64,000 nt of DNA from Rheinheimera nanhaiensis E407-8 (GTDB lineage Bacteria; Pseudomonadota; Gammaproteobacteria; Enterobacterales; Alteromonadaceae): the NCBI RefSeq assembly GCF_000296695.1, contig NZ_BAFK01000021.1, positions 1 through 64,000 on the forward strand, written 5' to 3'. The translations under genes and the position numbers were made by a program. Below the pieces are notes generated by a model, which worked only from the letters and a program-made list of their open reading frames with translations, was not told the DNA's origin and did no database searches. This document shows positions 7,953 through 56,167 of this stretch, piece after piece. Positions within the stretch are counted from its first letter, which is position 1; each line of letters starts with the position of its first letter.

Positions 7953-7964
7953 CTGGTTATCCTG

Positions 7965-9113: not shown

Positions 9114-9321
9114 AGCCGCCTCCGCCACTGCCATTGGCGCCTTTAGCCGCCTCACGCGAGTCCTGCACATGTACGATATGTTGCAGCGCTACCGGATGAC
9201 GGCCAAACGCCATGATAGGGTCAGCCAGCTTGTCGCGCTCATAGGGTTTTACCCAGGGCTCTAAGCTGGCACAGCCACTAAGCAGCAATACAGGCACTAA
9301 ACCCAGCACCCGCTTATTCAC
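9100..9321 (-). CDS. DUF4266 lipoprotein with Gly/Cys-rich C-terminus
   Basis: The start is probably GTG 9321, overlapping the stop of the TlpA gene, with AAGG eight bases upstream. This gives 73 aa with a compact lipoprotein signal (VNKRVLGLVPVLLLSGC). ATG 9348 is an alternative with a less typical N-terminus. The middle contains WVKPYERDKLADPIM, and the end is a glycine run closing with GGGGCGCN, the hallmark of DUF4266. The two terminal cysteines suggest metal or haem binding, or a substrate for the neighbouring thioredoxin (inference). It is embedded between tlpA and DUF3570, its usual companions. Confidence 0.85.
   Translation of the reverse strand: MNKRVLGLVPVLLLSGCASLEPWVKPYERDKLADPIMAFGRHPVALQHIVHVQDSREAAKGANGSGGGGCGCN
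9119..9123 (-). promoter_or_regulatory. strong Shine-Dalgarno for the DUF3570 gene
   Basis: On the minus strand this reads GGAGG, five bases before the GTG at 9113. It lies inside the Gly/Cys-rich 3' codons of the DUF4266 gene, so the glycine codons of one protein double as the ribosome-binding site of the next. This decides the start of DUF3570 in favour of the GTG over the upstream ATGs at 9170 and 9134. Confidence 0.6.
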
Positions 9322-9787: not shown

Positions 9788-9810
9788 GCTAGTTCACCTT
9801 CTCTATACAG

Positions 9811-10425
9811 CTAAAAATACAGCGCCAGCCCAAGCGACAAACTTAAGTTATGCGTGGTTTTGCTGCGCGCTAAAATAGTGGTTTCAAAAATATAATCGCT
9901 AAAGGTCAGCTCCACTGCCAGCCAGTCGGTGGCATACAACCTGAACTGACTGCCCAGGTGCAGTGCAAACACTTTATCGCCGGCAAAATCAACATTACCG
10001 CCGCCGGCAAACAGCGCCAAGCCGCTGTTCAGCGCGAAATCACGCGTTAAAAACACTTCGCCCGGCAACAACATATAGCCAACATGGGCACCGTAGTATT
10101 GCCATTTGCGCTGCTCGTCGGTTAACAGCGGTGCGGCGCCACTTAATTCTTCAAACGAGGTGCGACCCGCTTTGGCAAAGGCATACTCGGCACTGAGATA
10201 AAAGTCTTCGTTGATCTGGTAGCTTAATTGCAACGCCCCCAGCGCACTGCTGCCAAAATCTTCAATGCTAAGCACCCCGGCGCGCACCCCCAGCAGCCAA
10301 TTTTCACTATCCAGCACATCTTCGTTAATGATGGTGCGCTCAATATCCGGTGTCACCTGTTGTGCGCCGGCCCAGACGGGGGCCAAACACAGCACTAAAA
10401 AAATACGCTGAAGCCAAGTTTCCAT
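9811..10425 (-). CDS. outer-membrane beta-barrel protein (myxobacterial OMP-like)
   Basis: The 204-aa product has a signal peptide (METWLQRIFLVLCLAPVWAGAQQ), then a short acidic N-terminal stretch (VTPDIERTIINEDVLDSENW) and eight or so amphipathic strands ending in LGLALYF. The pattern NWLLGVRAGVLSIEDFGSS resembles the outer-membrane beta-barrel family found beside GltA/GltB/NfsA-type proteins. The gene overlaps the upstream SH3/barrel gene by 31 bp. Likely an outer-membrane anchor of the envelope complex; ligand unknown. Confidence 0.78.
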   Translation of the reverse strand: METWLQRIFLVLCLAPVWAGAQQVTPDIERTIINEDVLDSENWLLGVRAGVLSIEDFGSSALGALQLSYQINEDFYLSAEYAFAKAGRTSFEELSGAAPLLTDEQRKWQYYGAHVGYMLLPGEVFLTRDFALNSGLALFAGGGNVDFAGDKVFALHLGSQFRLYATDWLAVELTFSDYIFETTILARSKTTHNLSLSLGLALYF

Positions 10426-11132
10426 GTATCAATCTCTTCGTTGTCATTACGGTCGGTGACGATTACGCTGCGCCGGTAGCCGGCACGGGCAATAAAATTG
10501 CGGCTGATATAGTAACGCAGGCCAAGTTCGCTGCTGGCCAGCGTATTGTTGCGATCCGGCGTTTGCACCAGCACAGTGCGCGGCGTGGTACGCAGTACAC
10601 CACCACCGATGCCAAAATAAGGCGATAAGCGCCAGTGTGGCATGGGGCTTAGGTAAATACTCAGCTCTGCCGACAGGTTATCCGCCTGCTGGCCATTGGC
10701 CTGGCCCAGCGCCAGTTCGGCCTGCACAAATTCGCTAAACAGATAAGATACAGACAGCTGATAGTAACTGCTGCCGTTAAAATCACCAAAGGCGACACCC
10801 GCTTCAAACTGACGCTGCCTGTACGCATCCAGTTTGTCGTCGCTGACACTAAAACGCGCACCGTCCTCGCTTTGTAACGCCATCAGATCAGTGCGTGCCA
10901 GCCAGTAACGTTGCTGCTTAAATTCTACCTGCACCCAATCCTGCCGCCGGCTAACTAAGGTTAACCTTTCTTGCTTTATCGCCACCTGTACAATCGGATA
11001 ACCGCGGCCGGGGCCGGAATGTAAATTGACAAAATCGGTCTGCACCGTCACCTGCAGCGGCTCTGCCAATAGCGGCTTTGCCTGTAGCGACGAGCCTATC
11101 AATACCAGCAGAGCAAAAACGAAGCTGCGCAT
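10395..11132 (-). CDS. SH3-domain outer-membrane beta-barrel protein
   Basis: The 245-aa product has a signal peptide (cleavage near LQAKPLLA). A bacterial SH3 domain follows at about residues 26-85 (NLHSGPGRGYPIVQVAIKQE...WVQVEF...YWLARTDL). The C-terminal part is a barrel-like domain of about 140 residues ending LGFSVFF. SH3b domains usually bind peptidoglycan or protein, so this could tether the outer membrane to the cell wall. It follows the cytochrome gene with no gap (stop of one adjoining start of the other) and overlaps the next barrel gene. It is a paralogue-like partner of the 204-aa barrel. Confidence 0.8.
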   Translation of the reverse strand: MRSFVFALLVLIGSSLQAKPLLAEPLQVTVQTDFVNLHSGPGRGYPIVQVAIKQERLTLVSRRQDWVQVEFKQQRYWLARTDLMALQSEDGARFSVSDDKLDAYRQRQFEAGVAFGDFNGSSYYQLSVSYLFSEFVQAELALGQANGQQADNLSAELSIYLSPMPHWRLSPYFGIGGGVLRTTPRTVLVQTPDRNNTLASSELGLRYYISRNFIARAGYRRSVIVTDRNDNEEIDTWKLGFSVFF

Positions 11133-13748: not shown

Positions 13749-13862
13749 TTCTAATACCAGCTTGCTTCTACTGCGTGGGCAGGATGGCGCAACAGTTTAA
13801 CTTACCATACCGACAGCTTATCGCTGGCTTAACAACACAGCAAGATAAAATTTATTACAAAA

Positions 13863-13884
13863 AAAGCCAGCATAGGCTGGCTTT
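13863..13884 (-). terminator. rho-independent terminator of recA
   Basis: The arms AAAGCCAGC and GCTGGCTTT (nine pairs) enclose a four-base loop and are followed on the minus strand by a T-rich tail (TTTTGTAATAAATTTTA). It lies 22 bp past the recA stop and separates recA from the envelope operon at 13748. Confidence 0.88.
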
Positions 13885-13906
13885 ATTAACGTTAGATGAA
13901 CAGCTG

Positions 13907-14950
13907 TTATAAGTCGGCTTCAAACGCCTCAGGAATGGCCTGCTCTACCGGTGTTTCACCCGGCTTTAACAGCAGGCGGGCACGCAGCTCTTTTTCAATT
14001 TCATCTGCCACCGCCGGGTTGTCCTGCAAAAATTTCATTGCATTGGCTTTACCCTGGCCAATTTTATTGCCCTGATAGGCATACCAGGCGCCGGCTTTAT
14101 CTACCAGGCCTTGTGCGACACCTAAATCAATCAGTTCGCCTAACTTATTAATGCCGGCGCCGTACTGAATAATAAACTCGGCTTGTTTAAACGGCGGTGC
14201 GACTTTGTTTTTCACCACTTTAACGCGGGTTTCGTTACCGGTAATTTCATCACCTTCTTTTACCGAGCCGATACGGCGAATATCCAGACGCACAGAAGCG
14301 TAGAATTTCAGTGCGTTACCACCGGTAGTGGTTTCCGGGTTACCAAACATCACACCAATTTTCATGCGGATCTGATTGATGAAAATACACAGCGTATTAG
14401 AGCGTTTAATGTTGGCGGTTAACTTACGCAGCGCCTGTGACATTAAACGTGCCTGCAAGCCCATGTGGCTGTCACCCATATCACCTTCAATCTCAGCTTT
14501 GGGCGTTAACGCCGCTACCGAGTCAACGATGACCACGTCTACCGCTGCAGAGCGTACCAACATGTCACAAATTTCTAAGGCCTGCTCACCGGTGTCGGGT
14601 TGAGATACCAACAGGGCATCCACATCAACACCCAGTTTTTTCGCGTATACCGGGTCCAGCGCGTGCTCAGCGTCGATAAAAGCACAGGTTTTGCCAGAGC
14701 GCTGCGCTTCAGCAATCACCTGCAGCGTTAAGGTGGTTTTACCGGAAGACTCAGGACCATAAATTTCAACAATACGGCCATAAGGTAAACCGCCGATGCC
14801 AAGGGCAATATCCAGCCCCAGTGAACCGGTCGATACGGCTTCGATATCCAGGGCGGTACTGTCGCCAAGGCGCATAATAGAGCCTTTACCAAACTGACGT
14901 TCAATCTGGCCTAAAGCGGCAGCAAGGGCTTTTTGTTTGTTGTCGTCCAT
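13907..14950 (-). CDS. recA: RecA recombinase
   Basis: The 347-aa product is counted from ATG 14950 ([17 protein letters not shown]), which aligns with the usual RecA N-terminus; earlier ATGs at 14962 and 14986 add unconserved residues. Walker A is GPESSGKT, Walker B is [10 protein letters not shown], and the DNA-binding loops ([16 protein letters not shown] and the [15 protein letters not shown] segment) are intact. It forms the filament on single-stranded DNA for homologous recombination and triggers LexA self-cleavage. A perfect-spacing LexA box at 14991-15010 shows SOS control. It is a monocistronic unit with its own terminator. Confidence 0.98.
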
Positions 14951-14990
14951 TTTTATATCCATGGTTGCGCCGGCGTCACCGGACAATTAA

Positions 14991-15010
14991 CACTGTATGC
15001 TCGTACAGTA
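14991..15010 (-). promoter_or_regulatory. LexA (SOS) box upstream of recA
   Basis: On the minus strand it reads TACTGTACGAGCATACAGTG, which fits CTGT-N8-ACAG exactly and is close to the E. coli recA operator. It lies 41-60 bp upstream of the recA ATG. A TTGACA hexamer inside the last codons of pncC (minus strand) and an AT-rich segment (GTTAAT) just after the box are candidate promoter elements; which pair is used cannot be decided by eye. Confidence 0.92.
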
Positions 15011-15012
15011 GT

Positions 15013-15513
15013 CTAGTTTGCTTCTGCTGTCAACAGCGCAATACTCTGTTTCAGCGCGTAATGAATGGCTTGCTGGCGCACGGCAGCCCGGTCGCCGGCA
15101 AACACCAGCTGACTGCTGGCCAACTGGCCGTTAAGATAAAAACCAAAACAGACGGTGCCCACCGGCTTATAGGCCGAGCCACCGTCTGGCCCGGCGATGC
15201 CGGACACGGCAATCGCCATGTCAGCGCCGGCTGCAGTGGCCGCGCCCTGCGCCATCTCGCACACCGTTTGCTCGCTTACTGCGCCGTATTGCAATAAGGT
15301 GGCGCTGCGCACCGCCAGTAACTGCTGTTTGGCTTTGTTGCTGTAGGTAATAAAACCACGATCAATATAAGCCGAGCTGCCGGGCACGGCGGTTAAACTA
15401 TAAGCAATACCGCCACCGGTGCAGGATTCAGCAGTGGTGATACTGTACTTTTTCCGTAATAATAGCTGGCCTAAATCTGTCGCCAGCTGCAGGCTGTCTG
15501 CTGCGACCGTCAT
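15013..15513 (-). CDS. pncC: nicotinamide-nucleotide amidohydrolase (CinA C-terminal family)
   Basis: The 166-aa product is a single CinA C-terminal domain. It contains the family signature TAESCTGGGIAYSLT (about 27-41) and VSGIAGPDGGS (about 103-113). PncC hydrolyses NMN to nicotinate mononucleotide in the pyridine nucleotide salvage cycle, in the cytoplasm. Its place just upstream of recA is the standard gammaproteobacterial arrangement. It is divergent from mutS with only 32 bp between the starts, so the two promoters must overlap. The recA promoter lies in its last codons. Confidence 0.93.
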   Translation of the reverse strand: MTVAADSLQLATDLGQLLLRKKYSITTAESCTGGGIAYSLTAVPGSSAYIDRGFITYSNKAKQQLLAVRSATLLQYGAVSEQTVCEMAQGAATAAGADMAIAVSGIAGPDGGSAYKPVGTVCFGFYLNGQLASSQLVFAGDRAAVRQQAIHYALKQSIALLTAEAN

Positions 15514-15545
15514 AGCTTATCCAACAGGGAATACACAACGCCATT

Positions 15546-18119
15546 ATGCCGTCAGAGATGAAAACGGAGCAAGCCTTAAGCGCACATACCCCGATGATGC
15601 AGCAATACCTGGGGTTAAAAGCCCAGCACCCGGACATTTTACTGTTTTACCGCATGGGTGATTTTTATGAGCTGTTTTACGACGATGCAAAACGCGCCGC
15701 AGCGCTGTTGGATATCTCGCTGACCAAGCGCGGCCAAAGTGCCGGCACGCCAATCCCGATGGCGGGCGTGCCCTATCATGCGGTGGAAGGCTATCTGGCA
15801 CGGCTGGTGCAATTAGGCGAGTCGGTGGCCATTTGCGAGCAAATTGGCGATCCGGCGACCAGCAAAGGCCCGGTCGAGCGCAAAGTGGTGCGCATTGTCA
15901 CGCCAGGTACGGTTACCGATGAAGCCTTACTAAACGAGCGGCAGGATAACCTGCTGTGTGCTATCTATCAGCAGCGCGGCCAGTATGGTCTGGCACAGCT
16001 GGATTTAACCAGCGGCCGCTTTTTATTAAACCAGGTGGATAACAGTGACGATTTAGCGGCCTTACTGCAGCGGTTAAACCCGGCAGAGCTGTTGTACCCG
16101 GAAGATTTCAGTGACAGTTACCTGACTGAAAAACGCAAAGGCGCACGGCGCCGGCCAGAGTGGGAATTTGAGCTGGCCAGTGCCAAACGGCTATTGTGCC
16201 AGCAGTTTGCCACCAAAGACTTACTCAGTTTTGGTGTGGAGGATGCCCCGGTGGCACTGATGGCTGCCGGCTGCGTCATGCAGTATGTAAAAGACACCCA
16301 GCGCGCGGCACTGCCGCATATCCGCGCCATCGCACTGGAGCGCAGCCAGGACAATATCGTACTGGATGCCGCGACCCGGCGTAACCTGGAGCTGACGCAA
16401 AACCTGGCCGGCAACTATGAGCATACGCTGGCCGCAGTGCTGGATCGCAGCCAGACGGCGATGGGCTCGCGCCTGTTAAAACGTTGGATCCACGCGCCGC
16501 TTCGCCAGCAGGCCCAGGTGAATGCCCGCTTAGACGCGGTAGCCGAATTACAGCCGCAGTATGACGAGCTACAGCCACTGCTAAAACAGATTGGCGATAT
16601 CGAGCGGGTGATTGCCCGTTTAGCACTGCGTAGCGCCAGGCCGCGTGATTTTGCCAGGCTGCGCCAGGCATTAAGCCAACTGCCCGAGCTGGCGCCGTTA
16701 TTACAGCCACAGCAAAGCGCTCTGCTGCGGCAGATCTGCCAGCACAGCCAGCCGCTGCCCGACTTGCAGCAACTGTTGCAACAGGCCATCGTTGAAACGC
16801 CGCCGGTGCTCATTCGTGATGGCGGTGTCATTGCCCCTGGCTACAACGCCGAGCTGGATCAATGGCGTGCGCTGGCCAGCGGCGCCACAGATTACCTGGA
16901 GCAACTGGAGCGGCGTGAGCGCGAGCGCACCGGCATCGCATCTTTAAAGGTAGGGTTTAATAAAATTCATGGTTATTACATTGAAACCGGCCGCAGTGCT
17001 GATACCAAGGTGCCGGCAGACTATGTGCGCCGCCAGACGCTGAAAAATAACGAGCGTTATATTATTCCCGAGCTAAAAGAGTATGAAGACAAGGTGCTGG
17101 GCAGCCAGAGCAAAGCGTTAGCGCTGGAAAAACAATTGTATGAGCAGCTGTTTGAGTTAACCGCGCCCTATTTGGCCGCGCTGCAGCAGTTAGCGCAGGC
17201 ACTGGCTGAGCTTGACGTACTGTGCTGCTTTAGCGAACGTGCCGACAGCTTGCGTTATTGCCGGCCGAAACTGGTCAGCCAAACCGGCATTAAGCTTGAG
17301 CAGGCGCGCCACCCGGTGGTAGAGCAGGTATTAACCGAGCCTTTTATTGCCAACCCTTTAACGCTCAACAGCAGCCGGCGCATGCTAATGATTACCGGCC
17401 CCAATATGGGCGGTAAATCAACCTACATGCGCCAAACCGCGCTTATTGTGTTAATGGCCTACATCGGCTGCTTTGTGCCGGCCGACAGTGCCGAAATTGG
17501 CCCGGTCGATCGTATTTTCACCCGCATTGGCGCCTCAGATGATTTAGCCTCAGGCCGCTCGACCTTTATGGTAGAGATGACCGAAACCGCCACCATTTTG
17601 CACCATGCCACCGAGCACAGCCTGGTGCTGATGGACGAAATTGGCCGCGGCACCAGTACCTACGACGGCCTGAGTTTAGCCTGGGCCTGTGCCGATTACT
17701 TAGCCAGCCAGATCAAAGCCTTAACCCTGTTTGCCACCCATTATTTTGAATTAACCGAGCTGGCCAGCACTCTACCGGGCTTAGCCAACGTGCACTTAGA
17801 CGCGGTAGAGCACGGTGATGATATCGTGTTTATGCACCATGTACAGGAAGGCGCTGCCAGTAAGAGTTTTGGTTTGCAGGTCGCCCAGCTGGCAGGCGTA
17901 CCTAAAGCAGTTATACAGCGCGCACGGCATAAACTCAGCGAGCTGGAGCAGCATAACCAAAATGCTACACCAGAGGTTACGGCTACAGCAGCACAACCCC
18001 AGCTTGAACTGCTACCGGCTGAGCACCCTGTGCTGGAACAACTACGCGGCCTGGATCCGGATCACCTCAGTGCCCGCCAGGCATTAGAGCTGTTGTATCA
18101 GTTAAAACAGCAGTTATAA
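15546..18119 (+). CDS. mutS: DNA mismatch repair ATPase MutS
   Basis: The 857-aa product has the mismatch-reading motif FYELF in [15 protein letters not shown] near residue 40, the connector and lever domains, Walker [10 protein letters not shown] (about 618-626), and the Walker B/signature region [16 protein letters not shown]. It recognises mismatches and recruits MutL. The length matches E. coli MutS (853 aa). The ATG at 15546 is used; ATG 15558 (four codons later) is an alternative, neither with a strong ribosome-binding site. The C-terminal dimerisation tail is present ([21 protein letters not shown]). Confidence 0.97.
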
Positions 18120-34803: not shown

Positions 34804-36564
34804 TTATAAACTGGATGCTGTTTGCTCGGTTTGTTGTTTCATAGCGTCAAGCAGCTGTTCAAAACGAAGCTGTAAAGCTTGGATATCAACGTTTTTCATG
34901 GTTTGCCAGCTTTGACCAAAATCACTGGTGCTAATGATATCCCCTTCAGTGCAGAGCAAATGTAGGGTTTGCTGATAGGTCAGCTCAGGCAACAATATAT
35001 TGCAATCTTCACGCACTGCCCCACGCCGTTGCCAACTGCTTTTAACGTTCAGTTTGCCACCTTCTGCGCTCATCAAATACATTTGGCTGCTTTGTTTTGC
35101 ACTATCCCGCTCCCGACTGAGCGTAACCAGAGTACCGTCAGCCAGTTTAGCTGCCAACCCGGCTTCAGCGGCTCTGTCGCCAAACATACCAAGATTACGG
35201 CGCAGCGGCTGCCAGCTTACGCCATCATCGACACTCAGTTGCTGGTCGCCAATACCATCCCATTGGCTAACGGCCACACCAAGCAGACTGCCATCCACTA
35301 ACTGTGTCAGTTTCACCATGGCTTGCGATTTATTTTTGCGCCATTGCCCGGATACCTCGTCATAGTGGTTAAGCTCACTGTCATTGAGCACTTTGAGCTT
35401 GCCTTGCCGGTCGAGAAATGCGAACACGCCCCCATATTGCACTAAGAAGCTAAACTCCTTGCGCTTAAACTGACCGATCTGTTGCCACCCCTGCTGCAAC
35501 GAGGAGGTCTGATACACCGTAAAGGCCGATGAAGACTGCGTCATCGCGTAATAACGATCCGCGCCTTTGCGCAGCCAAACAATAGCCTCAGCAGATGACA
35601 CCGGCGTATATTTCTGCCAACCACTTTGCCATGACGATGCCACAAACAACTGCCCCCGCTCAGCGCCGACTGCAATGTAATCCGGCGTATCAACAACGGA
35701 CGTTAGCTGGGCATTAGTATCCAGCTTGGTACTGTGCCAGTCGCCTCGTTTGTCCAGGTAATGCAGTAAGCCAAAGCGCGACATCAGTACCGCATGTCCA
35801 TGATGCGACAAGGGTAATGCCAGATTACCCCAGGCATTTTTCTGTGCCTCTTCAGCCAGTTGCTGGCGTAGGTTATCAAAGCCATCTGGTTGCCAGGTCA
35901 GCGGCTGCTCCACATTCAGTGATGACCGCAGATGAGGATATTTAGCCAGCACATAATCGGTCAGCGCCTGCTCCGGTACCCTTGTCACAAAAGCCTTTTG
36001 TGAGCTCGAATTACTCCAGAAACTCTCAGACTTTACATCCAGTAAGGGTTGAAACACCAAGGTGCCCAGGCTGGTCAGTTCAGCCGGTTTAATGTGAAAC
36101 ACGCCCGCGGCATGCCTTACCGGCATCTGGATCCAGGCGGATACATTACCGTCAGAATAATGCGCGTACAGCCCGGCAATCATATATTCACCGGCTGGCA
36201 TAGTGCCGACAAACAGCTGGCTACTCACTACGCCTTCAGCTGAGGGCGCCAGCGTATAAATATCCGGGCTCCAATCCACTTTAGCTTCATCAAAACGTTT
36301 TTTTTCTGCTTCAGCTTTTGCTTTCGCCGCCGCAATAGCTTGTTCGCGCAGCTGGTCACGGTTATCCAGCCTGACGGCCAGCACTTCGGTCCAATCAGCG
36401 TGATAGCGTGATAAACGCTCAGTGTTATTTACCAGTTGCAAGGCAACAACACCGTGTCCATCACTGAGTTGCTTAACCTGATCGATACGGGTGGTTTTTA
36501 TCGTATTGCTGGCGCAAGCGGTTAACACCAGACAACAAAATGACGCAATCATTTTCTTAAGCAT
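34804..36564 (-). CDS. beta-propeller (BNR-like) lipoprotein of unknown function
   Basis: The 586-aa product has a lipoprotein signal (MLKKMIASFCCLVLTAC, Cys17), an Ala/Lys helical stretch (about 75-92) and a beta-sandwich-like part to about 190. The C-terminal two thirds consist of sortilin/BNR-like blades, such as LSVDDGVSWQPLRRN and ISTSDFGQSWQTMKN (Asp-box-like SxDxGxxW). Asp-box propellers occur in sialidases and in non-enzymatic surface proteins; no catalytic set is apparent. It lies between HPF and a strong terminator, in the interval that separates mazG from pyrG. Confidence 0.75.
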   Translation of the reverse strand: MLKKMIASFCCLVLTACASNTIKTTRIDQVKQLSDGHGVVALQLVNNTERLSRYHADWTEVLAVRLDNRDQLREQAIAAAKAKAEAEKKRFDEAKVDWSPDIYTLAPSAEGVVSSQLFVGTMPAGEYMIAGLYAHYSDGNVSAWIQMPVRHAAGVFHIKPAELTSLGTLVFQPLLDVKSESFWSNSSSQKAFVTRVPEQALTDYVLAKYPHLRSSLNVEQPLTWQPDGFDNLRQQLAEEAQKNAWGNLALPLSHHGHAVLMSRFGLLHYLDKRGDWHSTKLDTNAQLTSVVDTPDYIAVGAERGQLFVASSWQSGWQKYTPVSSAEAIVWLRKGADRYYAMTQSSSAFTVYQTSSLQQGWQQIGQFKRKEFSFLVQYGGVFAFLDRQGKLKVLNDSELNHYDEVSGQWRKNKSQAMVKLTQLVDGSLLGVAVSQWDGIGDQQLSVDDGVSWQPLRRNLGMFGDRAAEAGLAAKLADGTLVTLSRERDSAKQSSQMYLMSAEGGKLNVKSSWQRRGAVREDCNILLPELTYQQTLHLLCTEGDIISTSDFGQSWQTMKNVDIQALQLRFEQLLDAMKQQTEQTASSL

Positions 36565-36667: not shown

Positions 36668-36780
36668 TTAACACAATCGTTTCATTTTCTGCCACAGCGC
36701 ATCCATTTCGGCTAAGTCTGACTGCTCGGGCATTTTGCCTTGTTCTGCTAAGGCCTGCTCTACCGCGCAAAAGCGTTTTT
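36668..36780 (-). pseudogene. duplicated 3' end of mazG (copy 2)
   Basis: The minus strand encodes KRFCAVEQALAEQGKMPEQ and SDLAEMDALWQKMKRLC followed by a stop, matching the C-terminus of MazG at 42826 onward. Over the best 90 bp I count four differences. The match ends abruptly at 36780, where the mazG copy continues into coding sequence but this one meets a GTAG-hairpin element. There is no start codon or MazG body. It is in direct orientation to mazG and followed by a strong terminator, so it is probably the ancestral gene end left by an insertion. Confidence 0.9.
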
Positions 36781-36838: not shown

Positions 36839-36931
36839 ATTTTCAGTTAAATAACTTAATTTTTTGTGCACAAACGCTCCGAACATCGGCCGAGTAGAGA
36901 GAGGTCTGATTGCCTCGGACTGTTAAATTTT

Positions 36932-39244
36932 TTATACATTGTCACGAAAAAAACAGATGTACTTAACGAAAAGCTCAGCGATATAATGTGCTTTATTAAA
37001 TAATTCTTTCCTTTCATGCTCACTAGGTGTCTTTCCATGAGCCCTATTGTTTCTTTCTTCTCTTAGTGTATTCAGATGATGTCCTTTTGTAACAATGCCT
37101 TCTCTAACCACACAGTCAATCATGTTCGATAATTTTGCCATATCCTTTGAACTTACATCAAGTGCTCCACTCGCTTTTTTATTTGTTAAATAGTCTTTTA
37201 CGCTTGTTTCAAATATCAGCCCTAACTCAAACAAAGCTATATCAACGTTCTCTATCGTCAACAATGACAATGGCCTATTAAGCATGGAAATGGTCTTACT
37301 GTTTGCTGTATATTTTGTTATATCGATACCAATCTTTTCTACATCCTCGTTATGATAATAAACCGCATAGTAATTATTTCCTTCTTTGTACTTATGAATA
37401 TCTTTCATTCTTTCCAGATACTGATAGAACGTTGGACGAATGCATTCTACGTTCTTCGATACCTCTTTAAAAAGATCTCCTTTTTTAATTGGGATATTCG
37501 GCTGCTCGAACAAAATTGATCTAATTTCTTGCTGAACCTGATCTAGGAGAAGGGTTCGTTCCTCAACCCTTGCACTCAATTCATCTATGTCTTTGCAATA
37601 AACTATTTTATTTCTCCCACCATTTTTCTGAGTTATTTGAAGCGCATTGGTAGAGCATACCCTTTGCCTAACACTTACCTCAGACAGACCAGTGGATGCA
37701 GACACGGCTCGTATCAAATCAGAAAGATCTATGGGGTTTCTATCTCCAATAACGGCTTTTATGACCTCATTAAATTCTGAAACTAGAATGTATTCACTCT
37801 TTTTGGCTTTTTCTACTGATTGGAGCCTCCATGCACTTAGAGCATACTCACCACGCCCAACTCTCGAAAATTTTGATTGGTCACTTAAATAGACTTTTAA
37901 AGATCTTGGGGAGGCATCTGGCCTAATTTTTTCTAAAGCTAGCTTTATCTCGATAAACTTAAGCGGCTTTCCCGCTGTGTGCAAAATGTTCTCAATAGCT
38001 TGCACTATCGTTATATTGGCTACATTTTCCCAAGCTGCCAGCGCCCATTCCCCGCTCTTTCCAATAGGAACAAATCTGTCATCAGCAACCAACTGATTCT
38101 TCAAGTTTGTTTCTTTGATCAAATCTGAATAAACGGATGATTTTGACAAAAAATTTATTTCCTGAGAGATCTTTGAAAAGTGCATAGGCTTTCCGGAGGA
38201 TTCGAGAACGCGAAAAGCCTTATCTGCAGCGCTTCGAAGCCTTGAGAACTTTACAAGAATGCTATCATCGTGTATTTCAATATCTTTGGTGGCAGATAGC
38301 GCAATTTTTATAGAGTCATTCGAAATGCTCGATTTCTTTCCACTTTTTCGCTTTGCGCTCACTATTAAATCGAAAACAGGCAAAGAATTAGCTCTATCAT
38401 ATATATGATCAAGAGCTTGAAAAACAGATTCAATCTCATGCTTTTCGTATTTTTCAGCAATACACCAGGCTTCTGATATCTCCCCTCTGAATCCGACAAT
38501 ATTTTTAGGAAGTTTTGTGTATCCAGATACTTCCATAAGTAAATCTAAATACTCTTCACTTAGGGTTTCCCCACACTTTTCAACGAATATTCTTTCTATA
38601 TCTTCTTTTAAAATCAACCACTCATATACTTTCATACTCTCTTGAAACGATTTGTAAGCTGCATATATTTGAGGAGATAGTTTCCAAGTGCTTTTTCTTA
38701 ATTCGTCCATTAAAGCCAACTTTAGCTCTTTAATAGACTTTTCTTCAATTTGCCTTATCCTTTCCCGTGTGACGTCATAAAACGCACCAAGATCCTCCAA
38801 TGTGTATCTTTTATTTCCATTTAAACCAAAACGCTTTTTAATAACATCAGTATCCCGTTTAATATTAGATGATTTCTTTCTTGATAGATACAGCTCAACA
38901 ATCGCTGGAAATGCTTCAACAAGATTACCATTTGTCGACGAGAGAAATTCTTCTCTAGGATCAACATAGCGTTTTATTTTTTCGTCCGAAGCTGACTCGA
39001 CCTCTTGTATGAATTTATAAACTGCAGAGCTTGTCTCTGCAACTGTCTTAACACCAACACCCTCCGATTCGGATAGCTCGGACAAAGCCAGAAGCACAGC
39101 TTCATAGCTATTTCGGGCTCCAAGAGAGATTAGAACATTACGAGCGCGCGTTGGTAATCCAATAACATCTATAGGAATTAGGGAGGCTCTTTCCTTAAAT
39201 ATTGGAGATATTTCTTGTAAAATTTCGTTTTTTCCAACATCCAT
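36932..39244 (-). CDS. large multidomain protein: sigma-70 region 4-like HTH, HARE-type winged helices, C-terminal HEPN-type motif
   Basis: From ATG 39244 the product is 770 aa; a TTG at 39283 would add 13. In order: an alpha-CTD/helix-hairpin-helix-like segment (about 27-75, LPTRARNVLISLGARNSYEA); a region 4-like HTH (about 146-175, YTLEDLGAFYDVTRERIRQI); two HARE-type winged helices (about 339-404 and 411-473, each with GKP(M/L) and a closing GE(W/Y)AL.AW); two more winged-helix-like stretches; and a C-terminal helical domain with RNNRAH (731-736), the HEPN RNase signature RNxxxH. The gene is strikingly AT-rich and flanked by direct repeats. Function unknown; a DNA-sensing regulator or defence nuclease is inferred. 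Confidence 0.75.
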   Translation of the reverse strand: MDVGKNEILQEISPIFKERASLIPIDVIGLPTRARNVLISLGARNSYEAVLLALSELSESEGVGVKTVAETSSAVYKFIQEVESASDEKIKRYVDPREEFLSSTNGNLVEAFPAIVELYLSRKKSSNIKRDTDVIKKRFGLNGNKRYTLEDLGAFYDVTRERIRQIEEKSIKELKLALMDELRKSTWKLSPQIYAAYKSFQESMKVYEWLILKEDIERIFVEKCGETLSEEYLDLLMEVSGYTKLPKNIVGFRGEISEAWCIAEKYEKHEIESVFQALDHIYDRANSLPVFDLIVSAKRKSGKKSSISNDSIKIALSATKDIEIHDDSILVKFSRLRSAADKAFRVLESSGKPMHFSKISQEINFLSKSSVYSDLIKETNLKNQLVADDRFVPIGKSGEWALAAWENVANITIVQAIENILHTAGKPLKFIEIKLALEKIRPDASPRSLKVYLSDQSKFSRVGRGEYALSAWRLQSVEKAKKSEYILVSEFNEVIKAVIGDRNPIDLSDLIRAVSASTGLSEVSVRQRVCSTNALQITQKNGGRNKIVYCKDIDELSARVEERTLLLDQVQQEIRSILFEQPNIPIKKGDLFKEVSKNVECIRPTFYQYLERMKDIHKYKEGNNYYAVYYHNEDVEKIGIDITKYTANSKTISMLNRPLSLLTIENVDIALFELGLIFETSVKDYLTNKKASGALDVSSKDMAKLSNMIDCVVREGIVTKGHHLNTLREERNNRAHGKTPSEHERKELFNKAHYIAELFVKYICFFRDNV

Positions 39245-39283
39245 AGTAGATTCGACTCCAGATTTGAAATTGTTTTTACTCAA

Positions 39284-39309
39284 CGGAAAATCCGTATTTA
39301 ATCACGGAT
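39284..39309. promoter_or_regulatory. inverted-repeat cluster upstream of the HEPN-type gene
   Basis: CGGAAAATCCG (39284-39294) is followed by the overlapping pair ATCCGT (39290-39295) and ACGGAT (39304-39309). They lie 40-65 bp before the ATG at 39244 in an AT-rich region. The arrangement suggests an operator, perhaps for autoregulation by the multi-HTH product. No convincing -35/-10 pair could be fixed. Confidence 0.35.
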
Positions 39310-39442
39310 ATCTCTGCCTTTGTAAATATAATGTACAGAACACTACATTGCTTTTGCATAACTTACAACAGGTTATAGGTACAGTGGGTATTTGTGTTTG
39401 CGATAACTGAGGATGAATCCGTCTGATTAACAAAAGCCAGAA

Positions 39443-39651: not shown

Positions 39652-39981
39652 ATGAAGCGGATTTTCACCTGTATAGTTATTCTGTTTTTAATTGCCTGCC
39701 AACCGGTAACCAGCTCTGAGCCAGAGTTCAGGCCCGAGCCTGTGCCGGTTTCTGCCCTTTGGATAGGTGGCGCTGATGGTGGTGTTTATGTTGATATAAG
39801 CCGCGATGATAAAAACTATTCCGGTACGGTTTACACAGACAGCACTGGCGATGTTTGGTACAGCGGCAGCTTTACCTATAGTGGCACCGCAGAGTTTGAC
39901 GTTAAGTCTGCAGAATCTTATACAGGCTGGGACGGTGAAATGCTCTATCTGGCTAATGGTGAGTATCTTAAAGCAGAGTAG
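39652..39981 (+). CDS. small lipoprotein of unknown function
   Basis: The 109-aa product has a lipoprotein signal (MKRIFTCIVILFLIAC, Cys16), a Pro/Glu linker and a beta-rich domain with repeated Tyr/Gly/Ser strands (YSGTVYTDSTGDVWYSGSF). It resembles small periplasmic or outer-membrane-attached beta proteins and could be an immunity-type lipoprotein, by analogy with the neighbouring module. There is no family match I can name. GGAG lies ten bases before the ATG. It ends in the hairpin repeat at 40015. Confidence 0.65.
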   Translation: MKRIFTCIVILFLIACQPVTSSEPEFRPEPVPVSALWIGGADGGVYVDISRDDKNYSGTVYTDSTGDVWYSGSFTYSGTAEFDVKSAESYTGWDGEMLYLANGEYLKAE

Positions 39982-40176: not shown

Positions 40177-40230
40177 CTAGCGCGGTGTTTGCTTTTTAAC
40201 CTGATTCCAAAGCGCATCCATTTCCGTAAT
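40177..40230 (-). pseudogene. short diverged copy of the mazG 3' end (copy 3)
   Basis: On the minus strand the frame reads ITEMDALWNQVKKQTPR and stops, matching the last codons of MazG (LAEMEALWQALKHSC) and of copy 2 (LAEMDALWQKMKRLC). Identity is highest over AGCGCATCCATTTC. It lies between the two cargo modules, in the same orientation as the other two ends, and looks like the end of a different mazG allele. Confidence 0.7.
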
Positions 40231-40383: not shown

Positions 40384-41028
40384 ATGCTTGGATGGCAGCC
40401 TGCTTGCCAAAAGGCAATCGCCGTTGGCTTAGGGCTTATACTTTCTGTGCTAACAACAAAGGTGGAGGCAGGTGTGTTTGATTGGTTAAGAGGGACTGAA
40501 ATCCAGTGGTCGCCGGAAATACGCGGGATCATTAGGGAAAATGGCACACCAGTTTCCGGTTTAAAAGTAGTACGGGAACTCTACTACGAAGATGACGAAT
40601 TTAACGACAGTACAGTAACAGATAATGAAGGTCGCTTTAGTTTCCCACGCAAAACATTAAGAACACGTAGGGTTTTATTTGACTACAGCATAGGGTTATT
40701 TTTATCCGTGTCTGATCATCCCATTGCAGGTGGACAAAACCGTTTTTTTGATATCCGCTGGGGTAACCAACTGGATGGCAAGGCGCTCAATTTATTGATG
40801 TCAGATATGCAGTGTGAACTGACCGCAGAAGAAAAGAATTTTAGCCTTAGAAACTTAGAAACACCCGACGGTGCAGCACCTTGGTTTGGCGCAAAGTGTA
40901 CCTTCACTCATGCCAGTATTGCAGTGTATTCAGATGAAGAGCTAGAAGAACAACGCCTTGAGCGAGAGCGAGAGCTTGATGAACAGGATCGTATTCTTAA
41001 TGAACAAAACAAGGAAAGTAAATCATGA
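40384..41028 (+). CDS. secreted beta-sandwich protein (DUF6795-like), possible lipase immunity protein
   Basis: The 214-aa product has a signal peptide (about residues 1-29, hydrophobic core AIAVGLGLILSVL). A carboxypeptidase-regulatory-like domain follows (about 38-125, IRGIIRENGTPVSGLKVVRE ... TDNEGRFSFP), then a two-cysteine part (MQCELT and AKCTFT) and a charged C-terminal helix rich in Glu/Arg. The DUF6795 label is from memory. Its stop overlaps the start of the lipase gene (ATGA). A periplasmic protein coupled to a phospholipase-like gene fits an immunity protein; this is inference. Confidence 0.7.
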   Translation: MLGWQPACQKAIAVGLGLILSVLTTKVEAGVFDWLRGTEIQWSPEIRGIIRENGTPVSGLKVVRELYYEDDEFNDSTVTDNEGRFSFPRKTLRTRRVLFDYSIGLFLSVSDHPIAGGQNRFFDIRWGNQLDGKALNLLMSDMQCELTAEEKNFSLRNLETPDGAAPWFGAKCTFTHASIAVYSDEELEEQRLERERELDEQDRILNEQNKESKS

Positions 41029-42185
41029 ATACATTAACACCAAGAATAGCAGTTTGGTTAGCCAGGGAACCTTATGAAGCTCAAAAAATAGCAGCTGGGC
41101 GGCGTTTCACTCCTAAATCAGAAGCATTAACAGATTACTTTGACTTTAGCCAAACCGGCGGCGTGATACATGCTACTTCTGGCAGTGTCTTGTCGACATT
41201 GTTTAACCGCACTACTGGCTTTGCTATTGTTGGCAAAGGTAAGGGAAGGTTTAGCTCTGACGTTGCCCTGGGTATTCGTGGCACCAATATGAAAAGTGGC
41301 CGAGACTGGTTTAGTAATGCCAATGCAAGTTTAGCCACCGCCGATAACAACAGCGCTGTGCACTCCGGTTTTCAAAAGGTGTTTAAGAGCATGCAACCGG
41401 CGCTTGAAAAGCAATTGGCTCCGTTACTAAATACCAACAGTAACGGTGTTGTACATTGTGCTGGTCACAGTTTAGGCGGAGCCTTAGCCAGCCTTGCTGC
41501 TATCTGGATAAAACAGCGTTTCGGTAATCGTGTAGCGCTTTATACCTATGGCGCGCCACGGGTAGGCTTAAACGATTTTGCCCTTAAATCTTCAGGCAGC
41601 ATAGATAAGATATACCGGTGTTTGCATGGCGATGATCCTGTGCCTATGGTGCCAGTATGGCCGTTCTATCATGCTCCGCTTAATGGTAGTAGCGTACTGC
41701 TGACGGCTGCAACGGGTATCAATATTTCGTCGCATTCTATGATGGAAAATCCGGGTTATGTCACAACATCTCGTGGTCAATGGGATGACTTACAACGTCG
41801 TGGTGATGTGGTTAAAGCGGTGCGTTTAGCATACGAGCGTCGTTTTGAATGTAGCTTTAGCACTCACTGGCAAGAGCGTCTAAGCCATGCATTGATTACC
41901 TTATTAAAAGACGCTGGTATGTTAGCAGCGGTATCCGTGCAAATGACTATTAGCGGCATTATGACATTTTATGATGTGCTGGCAATGACAGTAGAAAAAA
42001 TTGCAAATATAAGCAGCCAGTTTGCCGAGCAGGTTAAAGGCTTACTGGGCCATATGTTGGTATTTGCCGGTAAAGTGACAACGGCGGTTACCGAGCTTAC
42101 TGTTCGTTTTATTCGCTGGGTGTTTAAGGTAACACTGGAGGCTATGTATCGTGTAGCTCGCAAAGCAATTGAATTGGTGAGCTAA
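41025..42185 (+). CDS. class 3 lipase-family protein, candidate T6SS-type phospholipase effector
   Basis: The 386-aa product has no signal peptide. The alpha/beta-hydrolase core shows GHSLG (147-151, nucleophile Ser149), FRGT-like oxyanion strand LGIRGTN, acidic HGDDPVP (Asp203/204) and His237 in SSHSMM, so the catalytic triad is complete. After about residue 285 come long hydrophobic or amphipathic helices that could insert in membranes. Leaderless lipases of this family with an adjacent periplasmic partner are known as type VI secretion effectors (TseL-like). No T6SS structural gene is in the window. Confidence 0.8.
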   Translation: MNTLTPRIAVWLAREPYEAQKIAAGRRFTPKSEALTDYFDFSQTGGVIHATSGSVLSTLFNRTTGFAIVGKGKGRFSSDVALGIRGTNMKSGRDWFSNANASLATADNNSAVHSGFQKVFKSMQPALEKQLAPLLNTNSNGVVHCAGHSLGGALASLAAIWIKQRFGNRVALYTYGAPRVGLNDFALKSSGSIDKIYRCLHGDDPVPMVPVWPFYHAPLNGSSVLLTAATGINISSHSMMENPGYVTTSRGQWDDLQRRGDVVKAVRLAYERRFECSFSTHWQERLSHALITLLKDAGMLAAVSVQMTISGIMTFYDVLAMTVEKIANISSQFAEQVKGLLGHMLVFAGKVTTAVTELTVRFIRWVFKVTLEAMYRVARKAIELVS

Positions 42186-42335: not shown

Positions 42336-42380
42336 CGACGAATAATGATTTTTCTTTAAAGTAGCGTAACTTGGTTTCAT
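42297..42380 (-). CDS. 27-codon ORF coupled to the Rap1a-like gene
   Basis: The ATG at 42380 overlaps the stop of the Rap1a-like gene (ATGA). The peptide begins MKPSYATLKKNHYSSDD and ends with a MKMQSEHFTG-like tail. It stops 38 bp before the terminator hairpin. The related repeat copy A preserves the frame of the C-terminal part (a DD...ME.EYF pattern), which argues that the peptide, or the end of a longer ancestral gene, was under selection. It may be a real microprotein or the remnant of a C-terminal extension. Confidence 0.45.
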   Translation of the reverse strand: MKPSYATLKKNHYSSDDMKMQSEHFTG

Positions 42381-42763
42381 AAATTCCCTTTACATGCACT
42401 CAGTTCAATCAATGCTGCTTCGATTACCGATGAAGCACGCTGTTGCAGCTGCGACTCGGTTAGCTTATTAAAATAGCCATTTAAGTAATCACGCAGCGAG
42501 AGGGTTTTAAACTGCTGGTAGCTACACCAGGTTTTACCCTCAGTGGCATCCATCACGCCGAGTAAATAATGTCTTGCAGCATATTTATCAGCTGGAAGAT
42601 TGCTGGTGTAAGCGCGCCAGAACATTTCAGCTGAGAGATTATTGCTATCGATAGAAATTATCTCTGGCTTTTCAAAGACAGTCGGCGTCTCATCAGCATG
42701 ACCTTGGCTAAATGTTGACAGCAGCAACAGCGGCACTGCGATGACAAGTTGATAGCGAAACAT
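42377..42763 (-). CDS. Rap1a/Tai-like immunity protein
   Basis: The 128-aa product has a signal peptide (MFRYQLVIAVPLLLLSTFSQGHA). Its helical domain contains AARHYLLGVMDATEGKTWCS (about 62-81), LRDYLNGYF and VIEAALIELSAC (about 112-123). Two cysteines, the YLLGVMD motif and the length fit the Rap1a/Tai family of periplasmic proteins that neutralise amidase effectors of type VI secretion. No amidase effector gene is adjacent, so it is an orphan immunity gene or has another partner. It is the first gene past the mazG stop in the second module. Confidence 0.72.
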   Translation of the reverse strand: MFRYQLVIAVPLLLLSTFSQGHADETPTVFEKPEIISIDSNNLSAEMFWRAYTSNLPADKYAARHYLLGVMDATEGKTWCSYQQFKTLSLRDYLNGYFNKLTESQLQQRASSVIEAALIELSACKGNL

Positions 42764-42825: not shown

Positions 42826-43599
42826 CTAACAACTATGTTTTAACGCTTGCCACAGCGCTTCCATTTCGGCAAGGTCTGACTGCTCGGGCGTTTTGCCTTG
42901 TTCTGCTAAGGCCTGCTCTACCGCGCAAAAGCGTTTTTCGAATTTGCTGTTAGCGGCGCGCAGCACGGCTTCGGGGTCGAGTTTATGTTTACGTACGACA
43001 TTTACCAGCGCGAACATTAAATCACCCAGCTCTTCAGCAAGCGCTTCACTGCCAGCTTCACACTGCTCCACTTCGATAATTTCTTCTTTGACTTTATCCC
43101 AGCAGCCTTGTACATCGGGCCAGTCGAAACCGACATTGGCGCAGCGCTTTTGTAGCTTATAGGCACGGCTAAGCGCGGGCATGGCCTGCGGGATGTTATC
43201 GAGCACGCTGTGCTGGCCGACATCTTTGCGCTCGGCGCTTTTTAGCGCTTCCCAGTTCTTTAAAACCGCTTCGGCATTGTCGGCGCTCACATCACCAAAC
43301 ACATGCGGGTGACGCCGCTCTAACTTATCGCAAATGGCCGCCACACAGTCATCAAATTCAAAGCGGCCTTGCTCTTTAGCCATTTGGGCGTAAAACACCA
43401 CCTGAAACAGCAAGTCACCCAGCTCGTCTTTTAGCTCGTCAAAGCTCTCACGGGCAATGGCGTCGGCCACTTCGTAGGCCTCTTCCAGCGTGTAAGGCAC
43501 GATAGTGGCGTAGGTTTGCTTAAGATCCCACGGGCAGCCGCCTTGCGGGTCGCGCAGGCGGCTCATAATATTGAGTAAACGTTGAATATTGTCTGACAC
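42826..43599 (-). CDS. mazG: nucleoside triphosphate pyrophosphohydrolase MazG
   Basis: The 257-aa product is a tandem MazG protein: domain 1 at about 8-110 (CPWDLKQTYATIVPYTLEEAYE, with E-rich DELKDELGDLLFQVVF) and domain 2 at about 130-235 (WDKVKEEIIEVEQ ... EELGDLMFALVNVV). It hydrolyses (d)NTPs and influences ppGpp levels, consistent with relA 15 bp upstream. The last 35 codons are duplicated at 36668-36780. No terminator follows directly. Part of the 3' end was probably supplied by the island that now lies downstream. Confidence 0.96.
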   Translation of the reverse strand: MSDNIQRLLNIMSRLRDPQGGCPWDLKQTYATIVPYTLEEAYEVADAIARESFDELKDELGDLLFQVVFYAQMAKEQGRFEFDDCVAAICDKLERRHPHVFGDVSADNAEAVLKNWEALKSAERKDVGQHSVLDNIPQAMPALSRAYKLQKRCANVGFDWPDVQGCWDKVKEEIIEVEQCEAGSEALAEELGDLMFALVNVVRKHKLDPEAVLRAANSKFEKRFCAVEQALAEQGKTPEQSDLAEMEALWQALKHSC

Positions 43600-54367: not shown

Positions 54368-56167
54368 TTATTTACCCACTTTCAATATGGCCAGGAAGGC
54401 TTCTTGTGGCACTTCCACATTACCCACCTGCTTCATGCGTTTCTTACCTTCTTTTTGCTTTTGCAGCAGCTTTTTCTTGCGGCTGACGTCACCGCCGTAA
54501 CACTTGGCTAATACGTTTTTACGCATTTGCTTAATGGTGGTACGGGCAATCACGTGGTTACCAATAGCGGCCTGAATGGCAATATCAAACATTTGGCGTG
54601 GGATAAGTTCTTTCAGCTTTTCCGCCAGCTCACGGCCACGGCCCTGGGCAAAATCGATATGGCTGATAATGGCCAGCGCATCAACACGCTCACCGTTGAT
54701 CAGAATATCCACCCGCTGCATGTTCGAGGTCTGGAAGCGCTTAAAGCTGTAATCCAGTGACGCATAACCGCGGCTGGTCGACTTTAAGCGGTCGAAGAAG
54801 TCCATGACCACTTCGGCCATTGGCAGCTCATAGGTTACCGCCACCTGACGGCCGTGATACAGCATATTGGTTTGTACACCGCGCTTTTCGATACACAGGG
54901 TAATAACGTTACCCAGATATTCCTGCGGCACCAGGATATGCGCTTCCACGATAGGCTCACGAATTTCATCAATATCGTTAGTAGGCGGCAGGCTACTGGG
55001 GTTGTCTACCATGACGATATCGCCGTTTTTCTTCACCACTTCATACACAACGGTCGGCGCTGTGGTAATCAGGTCTAAATCGTATTCGCGCTCTAAGCGC
55101 TCCTGAATAATTTCCATGTGCAACATGCCAAGGAAACCGATGCGGAAACCAAAACCCAGTGCACCGGAGTTTTCCGGCTCGTAAAACAGTGATGAGTCAT
55201 TCAGGCTGAGTTTGGCCAGCGCATCACGGAAATCTTCGTAGTCATCGCTTGATACCGGAAACACACCGGCATACACCTGCGGCTTAATGCGTTTAAAGCC
55301 GGGTAACGGCTTTTCTGCCGCATTTTTCGCCAGCGTTAAGGTATCGCCTACCGGCGCGCCTTTAATTTCTTTAATACCGGCGATAACAAAGCCTACTTCG
55401 CCGGTTTTCAGCTCGCCGGTGTTGGTGGCTTTAGGGCTGAAGACCCCGACTTTGTCCACTTCGTAGGTTTGGCCGGTCGACATCACCTTAATTTTGTCTT
55501 TTTCTTTAATACTGCCGTGCTTAACCCGCACTAAAGAGACCACGCCCTGGTAAGAGTCGAACCAGGAGTCGATAATCAGTGCCTGGGTAGGCTGCTCCGG
55601 CTCACCTTCCGGTGGCGGAATTTTCTTCACGATAGTTTCCAGCACATCTTTAATGCCCAGGCCAGTTTTGGCTGAGCACTGCACTGCGCCTACCGCTTCA
55701 ATGCCGATAATATCTTCAATTTCCTGCGCTACCCGATCCGGATCGGCCTGCGGCAAATCAATTTTATTCAGTACCGGCAGCACCTCTAAATTCATATCCA
55801 GCGCGGTGTAACAGTTAGCTACCGTTTGCGCTTCTACGCCCTGACCGGCATCAACCACCAGCAGTGCGCCCTCACAGGCGGCCAGCGAGCGGCTGACTTC
55901 ATAGGTAAAGTCGACATGGCCCGGCGTGTCGATAAAATTCAGCTGATAAGTTTCACCGTCATCAGCCTTATAATGCAGCGTCACACTTTGCGCTTTAATG
56001 GTAATACCGCGCTCGCGCTCTAAGTCCATCGAGTCCAGCACCTGCTGCTGCATTTCGCGGTCAGACAGGCCACCACAGTACTGAATTAACCGATCAGACA
56101 GTGTCGATTTACCGTGGTCAATGTGGGCGATGATAGAAAAGTTTCTGATATGAGTGAGTTTAGGCAT
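54368..56167 (-). CDS. lepA: elongation factor 4 (LepA)
   Basis: From ATG 56167 ([20 protein letters not shown]), with GGA just upstream, the product is 599 aa as in E. coli; the ORF extends ten codons further up without similarity. GTPase motifs [14 protein letters not shown] and NKIDLP are present, with EF-G-like domains and the LepA-specific C-terminal region. It is a ribosome-associated GTPase. It is the first gene of lepA-lepB-rnc-era-recO-pdxJ-acpS. Confidence 0.97.

Follow-up and report, generated by a model that had tools for sequence, protein, structure and literature searches.

A probable integron cassette at the mazG-pyrG site of Rheinheimera nanhaiensis encodes a protein joining sigma region 4, HARE and HEPN-like domains

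The 64,000-nucleotide stretch of Rheinheimera nanhaiensis E407-8 DNA analyzed here (contig NZ_BAFK01000021.1, positions 1 to 64,000; hereafter the window) harbors a 770-residue open reading frame (ORF) at positions 36932 to 39244 of the minus strand, which combines a sigma-70 region 4 helix-turn-helix (HTH) and two HARE winged helices with an N terminus resembling the C-terminal domain of the RNA polymerase alpha subunit (alphaCTD) and a C-terminal region resembling HEPN domains (Table 1). We give about an even chance to the reading that this gene is an integron cassette shared between gamma- and betaproteobacteria, located here between mazG and pyrG, and encoding a one-protein toxin or defense effector under the control of modules of promoter- or polymerase-like type. 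A scan of genome contigs revealed two relatives, in Undibacterium macrobrachii (88% amino acid identity; locus L021) and Cobetia amphilecti (47%; locus L022), which together with the window gene are the three members compared below; the scan requires exact short peptides, and distant relatives could escape it.

The ORF opens with ATG and lacks an internal stop. This ATG is the better start when compared with a TTG at 39283, because the Undibacterium homologue has an ATG at the equivalent position and 26 nt upstream in common, and because the TTG falls within the degenerate end of a flanking repeat. The coding sequence has a GC content of 36.9% versus 53.3% in the rest of the window, where the minimum among 568 other equal-length stretches is 44.0%, in line with the low GC noted in the initial annotation of this DNA; in all three hosts the coding sequence lies at 36.5 to 38.1% GC, within surroundings of 46 to 63%. 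The motifs reported in that annotation are found where it placed them (TLEDLGAFYDVTRERIRQI from residue 148, GKPMHF from 351, GKPLKF from 425, and RNNRAH from 731).

Both the sigma-70 region 4-like HTH and the repeated HARE-type winged helices proposed in the initial annotation were recovered. Pfam Sigma70_r4 matches residues 130 to 175 with E=2e-8 (33.9 bits versus a cut-off of 24.1), sigma factors are the closest sequences in the PDB, with E values from 7e-10 to 1e-9, and the stretch VTRERIRQIE is intact; in primary sigma factors it forms the helix that reads the -35 element. Neither sigma-70 region 2 nor region 3 gives a Pfam match at E up to 1 anywhere in the 770 residues, and because region 2, which binds core RNA polymerase and the -10 element, is without a match, we do not class the protein as a sigma factor. 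Further downstream, Pfam HARE-HTH (PF05066) matches residues 339 to 405 (E=4e-9, 37 bits versus a cut-off of 25.9), the NCBIfam model of the RNA polymerase delta subunit reaches 34.7 bits over residues 338 to 412, below its cut-off of 42, and the second HARE copy pairs with the first by hhalign (probability 94%, E=1e-7). The structural check proposed at the outset gave the same picture, with VIA-align recovering winged helices in the predicted model: residues 337 to 405 align with 9a6y_A, an RPOE model (Z 9.1, root mean square deviation (rmsd) 2.2, 67 residues aligned), and residues 407 to 473 with RNA polymerase delta 2m4k (Z 8.5, rmsd 2.1, 67 aligned). These alignments back winged helices and not delta specifically, because other winged helices score equally well or better, up to Z 10.6. 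Among the 305 Foldseek matches of the weak full-length model, each with an E value greater than 0.08, are the RNA polymerase delta chains 2krc (probability 0.89) and 2m4k (0.82) at E above 1. In the region that follows, the order of helices and strands in the low-confidence model possibly resembles two further winged helices; residues 470 to 639 have no Pfam match, and a comparison of residues 476 to 640 with the HARE copies by hhalign was negative.

The N-terminal region was overlooked in the initial annotation. RNA_pol_A_CTD (PF03118) matches it with E=0.0037 (17.4 bits) in the window protein and E=0.0006 (19.9 bits) in the Undibacterium homologue, below the cut-off of 23.8 bits, and has no Pfam match in the Cobetia homologue; Foldseek with the weak full-length model places the alphaCTD chains 2max and 9dvt_A at a probability of 0.89 with E values of 1.1 and 2.1. 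We thus describe this region as alphaCTD-like only, with a fold that may be that of alphaCTD.

The C terminus is, in our judgment, quite probably a HEPN domain, and as such would be expected to act as a ribonuclease (RNase). When residues 640 to 770 were scanned alone against Pfam, the top matches were two HEPN families, both below cut-off, namely DUF4145 in two of the three members (E 0.0037 and 0.011) and HEPN_RiboL-PSP in all three (E 0.025, 0.021, and 0.016). In the whole-protein scan DUF4145 covers residues 669 to 744 (E=0.044) and is absent from the listing for the Cobetia homologue; run on the R. nanhaiensis genome, the DUF4145 model (E up to 0.01) matches this gene alone, also below cut-off. 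The active-site signature described in the motif account of a HEPN survey is Rx4-6H with a polar residue after the R, joined in many families by Ex3[KR] (PMC3710099). The window protein fits both, with an Asn after the R of its Rx4H motif and an Ex3[KR] motif upstream. RNNRAH by itself is modest evidence, because 69 of 2000 shuffled versions of residues 641 to 770 contain R[NDH]xxxH. In a weak model of the C-terminal piece, four long helices are predicted with the Rx4H motif at the end of the third, and the Ex3[KR] motif falls in the first long helix versus helix 2 in the families described in the survey (PMC3710099).

Several results weigh against a HEPN assignment. DUF4145 (PF13643) reaches 17.7 bits versus a curated cut-off of 23.1, which leaves the segment outside the family, and unrelated chance Pfam matches trail closely (E 0.035 to 0.26). 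The AlphaFold models, computed from an alignment of three sequences, are of low confidence (predicted local distance difference test score 50.5 at full length, 49.4 for the C-terminal piece alone). With the latter model Foldseek gave no useful match, with the full-length model it placed the HEPN-type chain 1jog only at E 1.9 with probability 0.35, and a profile search of the PDB returned no HEPN chain. That HEPN chains are missing from the VIA-align list is uninformative, because residues 328 to 472 fill that list. The HEPN domain of the initial annotation, with RNNRAH invariant in all three members and Pfam scores below threshold, is a probable one.

These scores lend some weight to a different reading, in which the protein is a promoter-binding transcription regulator whose alphaCTD-like, sigma region 4, and HARE domains bind promoters and whose C terminus is a non-catalytic dimerization domain, such that the cassette would rewire expression and not RNA stability. 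The confidently assigned domains are all DNA-binding types, and HEPN domains without the motif do exist, as described in the survey (PMC3710099). We nonetheless regard a pure regulator as unlikely, given that all three members, although overall identity falls as low as 47%, retain both Rx4H with its Asn and Ex3[KR], and that the C-terminal domain ranks with the better-conserved segments in the comparison with Cobetia (58% identity versus 37% for residues 181 to 338). By the same measure sigma region 4 is the most conserved segment (62%), the two HARE copies are 56% and 54% identical, residues 561 to 640 are 52% identical, and the remaining segments fall at 35 to 42%.

The whole protein, the C terminus included, is under purifying selection since the window and Undibacterium copies parted, with nonsynonymous (dN) and synonymous (dS) divergences of 0.068 and 0.517 (dN/dS ≈0.13), and corresponding values of 0.060 and 0.549 for the HEPN-like part; third codon positions account for 202 of the 303 differences. 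The foreign origin and mobility suggested at first are supported by the 88% identity to the Undibacterium protein, by the low GC in all hosts, and by a sporadic distribution; the homologues are few and scattered and are not conserved core genes. By eye, the Undibacterium and Cobetia loci each show a single gene amid core-looking genes. A profile of the C-terminal 581 residues matches nothing but the genome on which each search was centered (one of 369, one of 398, one of 245, and one of 151), whereas a profile of the N-terminal part (E up to 1e-11) matches 67 of 398 genomes, in which the listed matches, apart from the gene itself, are sigma region 4 stretches of ≈50 to 60 residues. In 59 other genomes, 30 of them of the same genus, no match extends beyond residue 199, and the matches are of sigma-factor type. 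No member was found on plasmids, which gave sigma region 4-only matches in five records and a HARE-only match in Segatella copri; phages gave no member and none or one match at E 0.5, viral contigs no confirmed member, and Escherichia coli none. A 793-residue frame in the same-genus relative G008 was rejected as a member and is an MzaA-like sigma factor. The S. copri plasmid protein (653 residues; L048, 4429 to 6390) has two C-terminal HARE-like stretches and a similar plan, with perhaps an alphaCTD-like N terminus by eye and without a HEPN or sigma region 4 Pfam match. That the known members number three counts against the even-chance reading given at the outset.

The same sparseness bears on whether the protein is a stress toxin or a cassette-stabilizing, toxin-antitoxin-like device, in which the N-terminal half would be a built-in antitoxin and the benefit would be cassette maintenance or dormancy, with phage defense incidental. 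A single gene with no obvious partner ORF in the three loci is consistent with this arrangement, as is the proposal, found in the HEPN survey, that HEPN cassettes are stress RNases (PMC3710099). Against it stand the very sparse family, which in each of the four profile searches is represented by the center genome only, and the lack of any copy within an intact array; we hold it to be improbable.

The gene is most likely an integron cassette with its own attC site now decayed, which moved between gamma- and betaproteobacteria, because its homology breaks at GCG|TT, the host carries two integron integrases, and attC sites are found in the mazG-pyrG interval of relatives. Nucleotide homology to the Undibacterium locus covers window positions 36873 to 39270 (86.7% identity over 2399 columns), and at the 3′ end it extends ≈60 bp beyond the stop codon before this break; integron integrases cut attC sites at G|TT. 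At ≈2.4 kb the unit would be large for a one-gene cassette. The Undibacterium end can fold into an attC-like hairpin (z -2.9 on one strand and -3.6 on the other), and the folding of the window copy is unremarkable (z -0.6 and -0.5). Integron integrases over the TIGR02249 cut-off number two in the R. nanhaiensis genome, one in Undibacterium (plus a sub-cut-off fragment), and none in 14 control genomes. We built a covariance model, R1, from 11 attC sites, ten from the two integrons of R. nanhaiensis and one from that of Undibacterium; in the array loci it recovers these 11 sites and four more at 20.6 to 36.7 bits, the array sites ranging from 20.6 to 65.4 bits. In one of the R. nanhaiensis integrons (L044, 15975 to 17013), two tandem cassettes carry, by eye, acetyltransferase-like ORFs that closely resemble each other.

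The attC evidence at the ends of the gene itself argues partly in the other direction. The Undibacterium end scores 17.8 bits under R1 (E 0.056 in 168,251 bases), below the array sites and below a 23.2-bit match at window positions 55369 to 55435, which has no AAC core and which we regard as a probable false positive; this match and another at 20.2 bits (L091, 9288 to 9324) show that R1 can exceed 20 bits away from arrays. For the window copy, the site reaches 6.9 bits and ranks third of 13 background-like matches, the Cobetia copy has no credible attC site and its genome no integrase over the TIGR02249 cut-off, the Undibacterium 5′ junction is without a recognizable core site, and no copy of the gene was seen within an intact array among the three members. 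GTTGAGT (39278 to 39284, minus strand) was dropped as a 5′ core site of the cassette, the alignment pointing instead to the degenerate end of the attI-like repeat described below.

The insertion looks like one at a cassette-collecting, variable site. mazG is present in all 30 other genomes of the genus, and in the 14 of these in which the region was inspected the mazG-pyrG interval measures 0.3 to 6.5 kb versus 8.7 kb in the window. None of the 14 carries the gene in this interval; 43-residue sigma region 4 matches occur outside it at four loci. Of 13 R1 matches (E up to 2) in the 225,764 bases of these relatives, 12 fall within the interval, in three of the relatives, and the remaining one, in L091, lies outside it. 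The attC sites within the interval comprise six in L089 (20.4 to 39.0 bits), two in L090 (32.8 and 14.2 bits), and four in L092 (61.1, 22.6, 13.8, and 12.9 bits), in the attC-collecting stretches L089 11720 to 14285, L090 11372 to 11528, and L092 2666 to 5196. No integrase-like ORF of at least 120 residues was seen by eye in these attC-bearing loci, on which no integrase model was run. Clusters of attC sites without an integrase have been termed CALIN (PMC9024848), and those in the intervals of the relatives look like such elements. In L092 the attC sites lie between an S30EA-like gene and a small lipoprotein gene that is the counterpart of window 39652 to 39981; the window cassette also lies between these two genes, together with one extra gene (34804 to 36564), and the flank beside the lipoprotein gene is near-identical over ≈200 bp.

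Directly upstream of the cassette is a repeat of ≈140 bp (39284 to 39424 without the degenerate last bases), copies of which also precede cassettes at the mazG site in L090 (11885 to 11976) and L092 (1860 to 2020) and are found elsewhere in the R. nanhaiensis genome (L030, 9835 to 9940; L031, 9856 to 9988; L032, 9064 to 9131). It contains two predicted hairpins, with five pairs showing changes on both sides, precedes single cassette-like genes, and could serve either as a mobile promoter or as an attI-like landing site dispersed over the genome. We use attI-like as a tentative label, because the repeat resembles the attI region next to the C37 integrase only over a short GAATAAGC stretch. Four of the six copies are followed by an attC-like site (61, 33, 16, and 10 bits), the window copy by the decayed site, and the sixth, near a contig end, by no attC-like site that we could find. 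In our own alignment, the expected crossover in the repeat is ≈2 bp from the onset of Undibacterium homology.

The weak or missing attC sites at the Cobetia, Undibacterium, and window copies and the Undibacterium 5′ junction could be accommodated if the gene had moved by a non-integron route, such as homologous recombination or a transposon, the attC-like end being due to chance; the homology that stops exactly at the GCG|TT crossover at one end and within ≈2 bp of the putative crossover at the other, with attC sites in the orthologous interval of three of 14 relatives and 12 of 13 R1 matches inside it, makes this very unlikely. Apart from the cassette, a 91-bp piece of the mazG 3′ region is duplicated at 36690 to 36780 and 42848 to 42938 (95.6% identical, 6 kb apart), with a third short fragment between them (40207 to 40224), as though the island between the duplicates had entered at the end of mazG or undergone recombination with it.

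The genomic context neither favors nor excludes a role in defense. PADLOC matches none of six window neighbors and none of seven ORFs examined in the intervals that carry attC sites in relatives, and none of the three loci has a clear adjoining defense gene; these observations speak against a defense effector. Among ten neighbors in the Undibacterium and Cobetia loci, two match PADLOC models, one to mad2 (L021, 13670 to 14932; E 3e-14, residues 181 to 360) and one to RtcR/PspF (L022, 8022 to 9830; E 1e-93, residues 228 to 504), and neither is taken as a defense gene, the matches being read as a shared generic methyltransferase domain and a shared generic AAA+ regulator domain, respectively. 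A defense island, as first proposed, is not found, the gene looking like a single integron-type cassette here and being a single gene in the other two genomes. In the window protein the models of PADLOC, the one defense library scanned, match no more than the sigma region 4 and alphaCTD-to-sigma region 4 stretches, and the defense function put forward in the initial annotation is not supported in the form stated there. Beside mazG lie genes for a DUF6795 protein, a class 3 lipase, and a Rap1a-family protein (40384 to 42185 and 42377 to 42763), possibly an orphan effector-immunity set.

By analogy, the protein is nonetheless probably anti-phage. Among integron cassettes expressed artificially, at least 16 of 179 from Vibrio cholerae gave phage defense, as did nine of 57 tested in Vibrio parahaemolyticus, as reported in a review (PMC12409362), and this provides the functional prior for defense. 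A single-protein HEPN defense system with a regulatory domain exists in DS-11, described as CBS plus HEPN (PMC13092281). On the reading of a cassette-borne toxin or defense effector, the N-terminal half, with its alphaCTD-like, sigma region 4, and two HARE domains, would bind promoter DNA or promoter-RNA polymerase complexes and serve as both sensor and brake, holding back the HEPN domain. Phage infection or stress would disturb what this half binds and release the HEPN domain, a putative metal-independent RNase that would cut RNA and stop growth or phage production. Because domain types of three RNA polymerase subunits (alphaCTD, sigma region 4, and delta/HARE) stand beside a probable HEPN RNase, one could also imagine a transcription-machinery decoy acting as a guard, which sits at promoters or polymerase imitating the parts that phages attack, for example through sigma region 4-binding takeover proteins, and which would set off its RNase on being bound or displaced; this more specific version strikes us as quite unlikely.

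Related arrangements have been described in part. In Table 1 of the HEPN survey, published in 2013, SIGMA-HTH figures as a fusion partner of DUF4145-type HEPN domains (PMC3710099), so the statement in the initial annotation that no described system has this architecture was too strong. These proteins resemble the window protein in joining a sigma-type HTH to a DUF4145-type HEPN domain with Rx4H; the entry names SIGMA-HTH only, and HARE, the alphaCTD-like domain, an integron context, and a mechanism are not described in it (PMC3710099). The survey also describes HEPN domains in integron cassettes (PDB 3jrt), proposed as RNases and as stress RNases (PMC3710099); these are likewise cassette-borne and putatively RNA-cutting, but form a separate HEPN family, in the description of which a DNA-binding half is unmentioned. 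PglW of type 2 BREX resembles the window protein in having an alphaCTD-like domain followed by several winged HTH domains, but has a NERD nuclease, kinases, and an inactive STAND module and is part of a multigene system, as described for that protein (PMC12839542). The PADLOC PglW model matches residues 24 to 173 (E=0.0007), and no Pfam kinase, NERD, or STAND match is found in the window protein at E up to 1. A common alphaCTD-sigma region 4 module is not claimed; hhalign with pieces of three PglW proteins recovered the alphaCTD part only (E=0.002, probability 13.6%).

MzaA of the MZA anti-phage system is a further defense protein with sigma region 4 and is the top NCBIfam match, at 58 bits versus a cut-off of 800 and over the sigma region 4 stretch only, which places the window protein outside the MzaA family; an MzaA-like protein of the same genus is accompanied by MzaB-E-like genes, unlike the window gene. 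This full-length MzaA-E-like set (L103 of G008, 2342 to 15630), all below NCBIfam equivalog cut-offs, adjoins a reverse transcriptase closest to that of retron St85, below cut-off. Fusions of HARE-HTH to restriction endonucleases, proposed as readers of modified DNA, pair a HARE winged helix with a nuclease as the window protein may do, but that nuclease cuts DNA and is not HEPN, as described for these fusions (PMC10853773). The full combination of HARE, alphaCTD-like, sigma region 4, and HEPN is unnamed in the literature searched, which was only partly aimed at it, and an earlier description in the HARE-HTH literature is possible. Given that the sigma-HTH/DUF4145-HEPN fusion and cassette-borne HEPN were listed in 2013, what appears new is the added combination of HARE and alphaCTD-like domains.

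Table 1 Features of the cassette and its protein (window coordinates)
Feature	Residues	Position	Strand	Evidence
Coding sequence, alphaCTD-like/sigma region 4/HARE-HARE/HEPN-like protein	770 in all	36932..39244	-	Alignment with L021 (88% amino acid identity) and L022 (47%) spans almost the whole protein
RNA polymerase alphaCTD-like helix-hairpin-helix domain	22-71	39032..39181	-	Pfam RNA_pol_A_CTD below cut-off
Sigma-70 region 4 HTH, contains VTRERIRQIE	129-180	38705..38860	-	Pfam Sigma70_r4 over cut-off
HARE winged helix 1	332-409	38018..38251	-	Pfam HARE-HTH and VIA-align
HARE winged helix 2	406-475	37820..38029	-	hhalign to HARE winged helix 1 and VIA-align
Region without domain assignment	476-640	37325..37819	-	Secondary structure of low-confidence model
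HEPN-like domain	641-770	36935..37324	-	Sub-threshold Pfam DUF4145 and HEPN_RiboL-PSP; four long helices in weak model
ETSVK, Ex3[KR] motif	679-683	37196..37210	-	ETSVK, ETSIK, and ENSLR in the three members
RNNRAH, Rx4H motif	731-736	37037..37054	-	Invariant in window protein and two homologues
Whole cassette unit, putative		36875..39272	-	Segment common to L021
Decayed attC-like site, 3′ end		36870..36928	-	Homology to L021 stops at GCG|TT; putative crossover at 36875/36874
attI-like repeat, ≈140 bp, upstream of cassette		39273..39424	-	Last bases degenerate; three other copies in own genome

If the proposed function is true, this gene would bring together three themes, with integrons storing phage defense, HEPN RNases providing the effector, and modules of transcription initiation providing the sensor. 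Finally, the mazG-pyrG cassette site and the attI-like repeats offer a place to seek further candidate genes in the genus.

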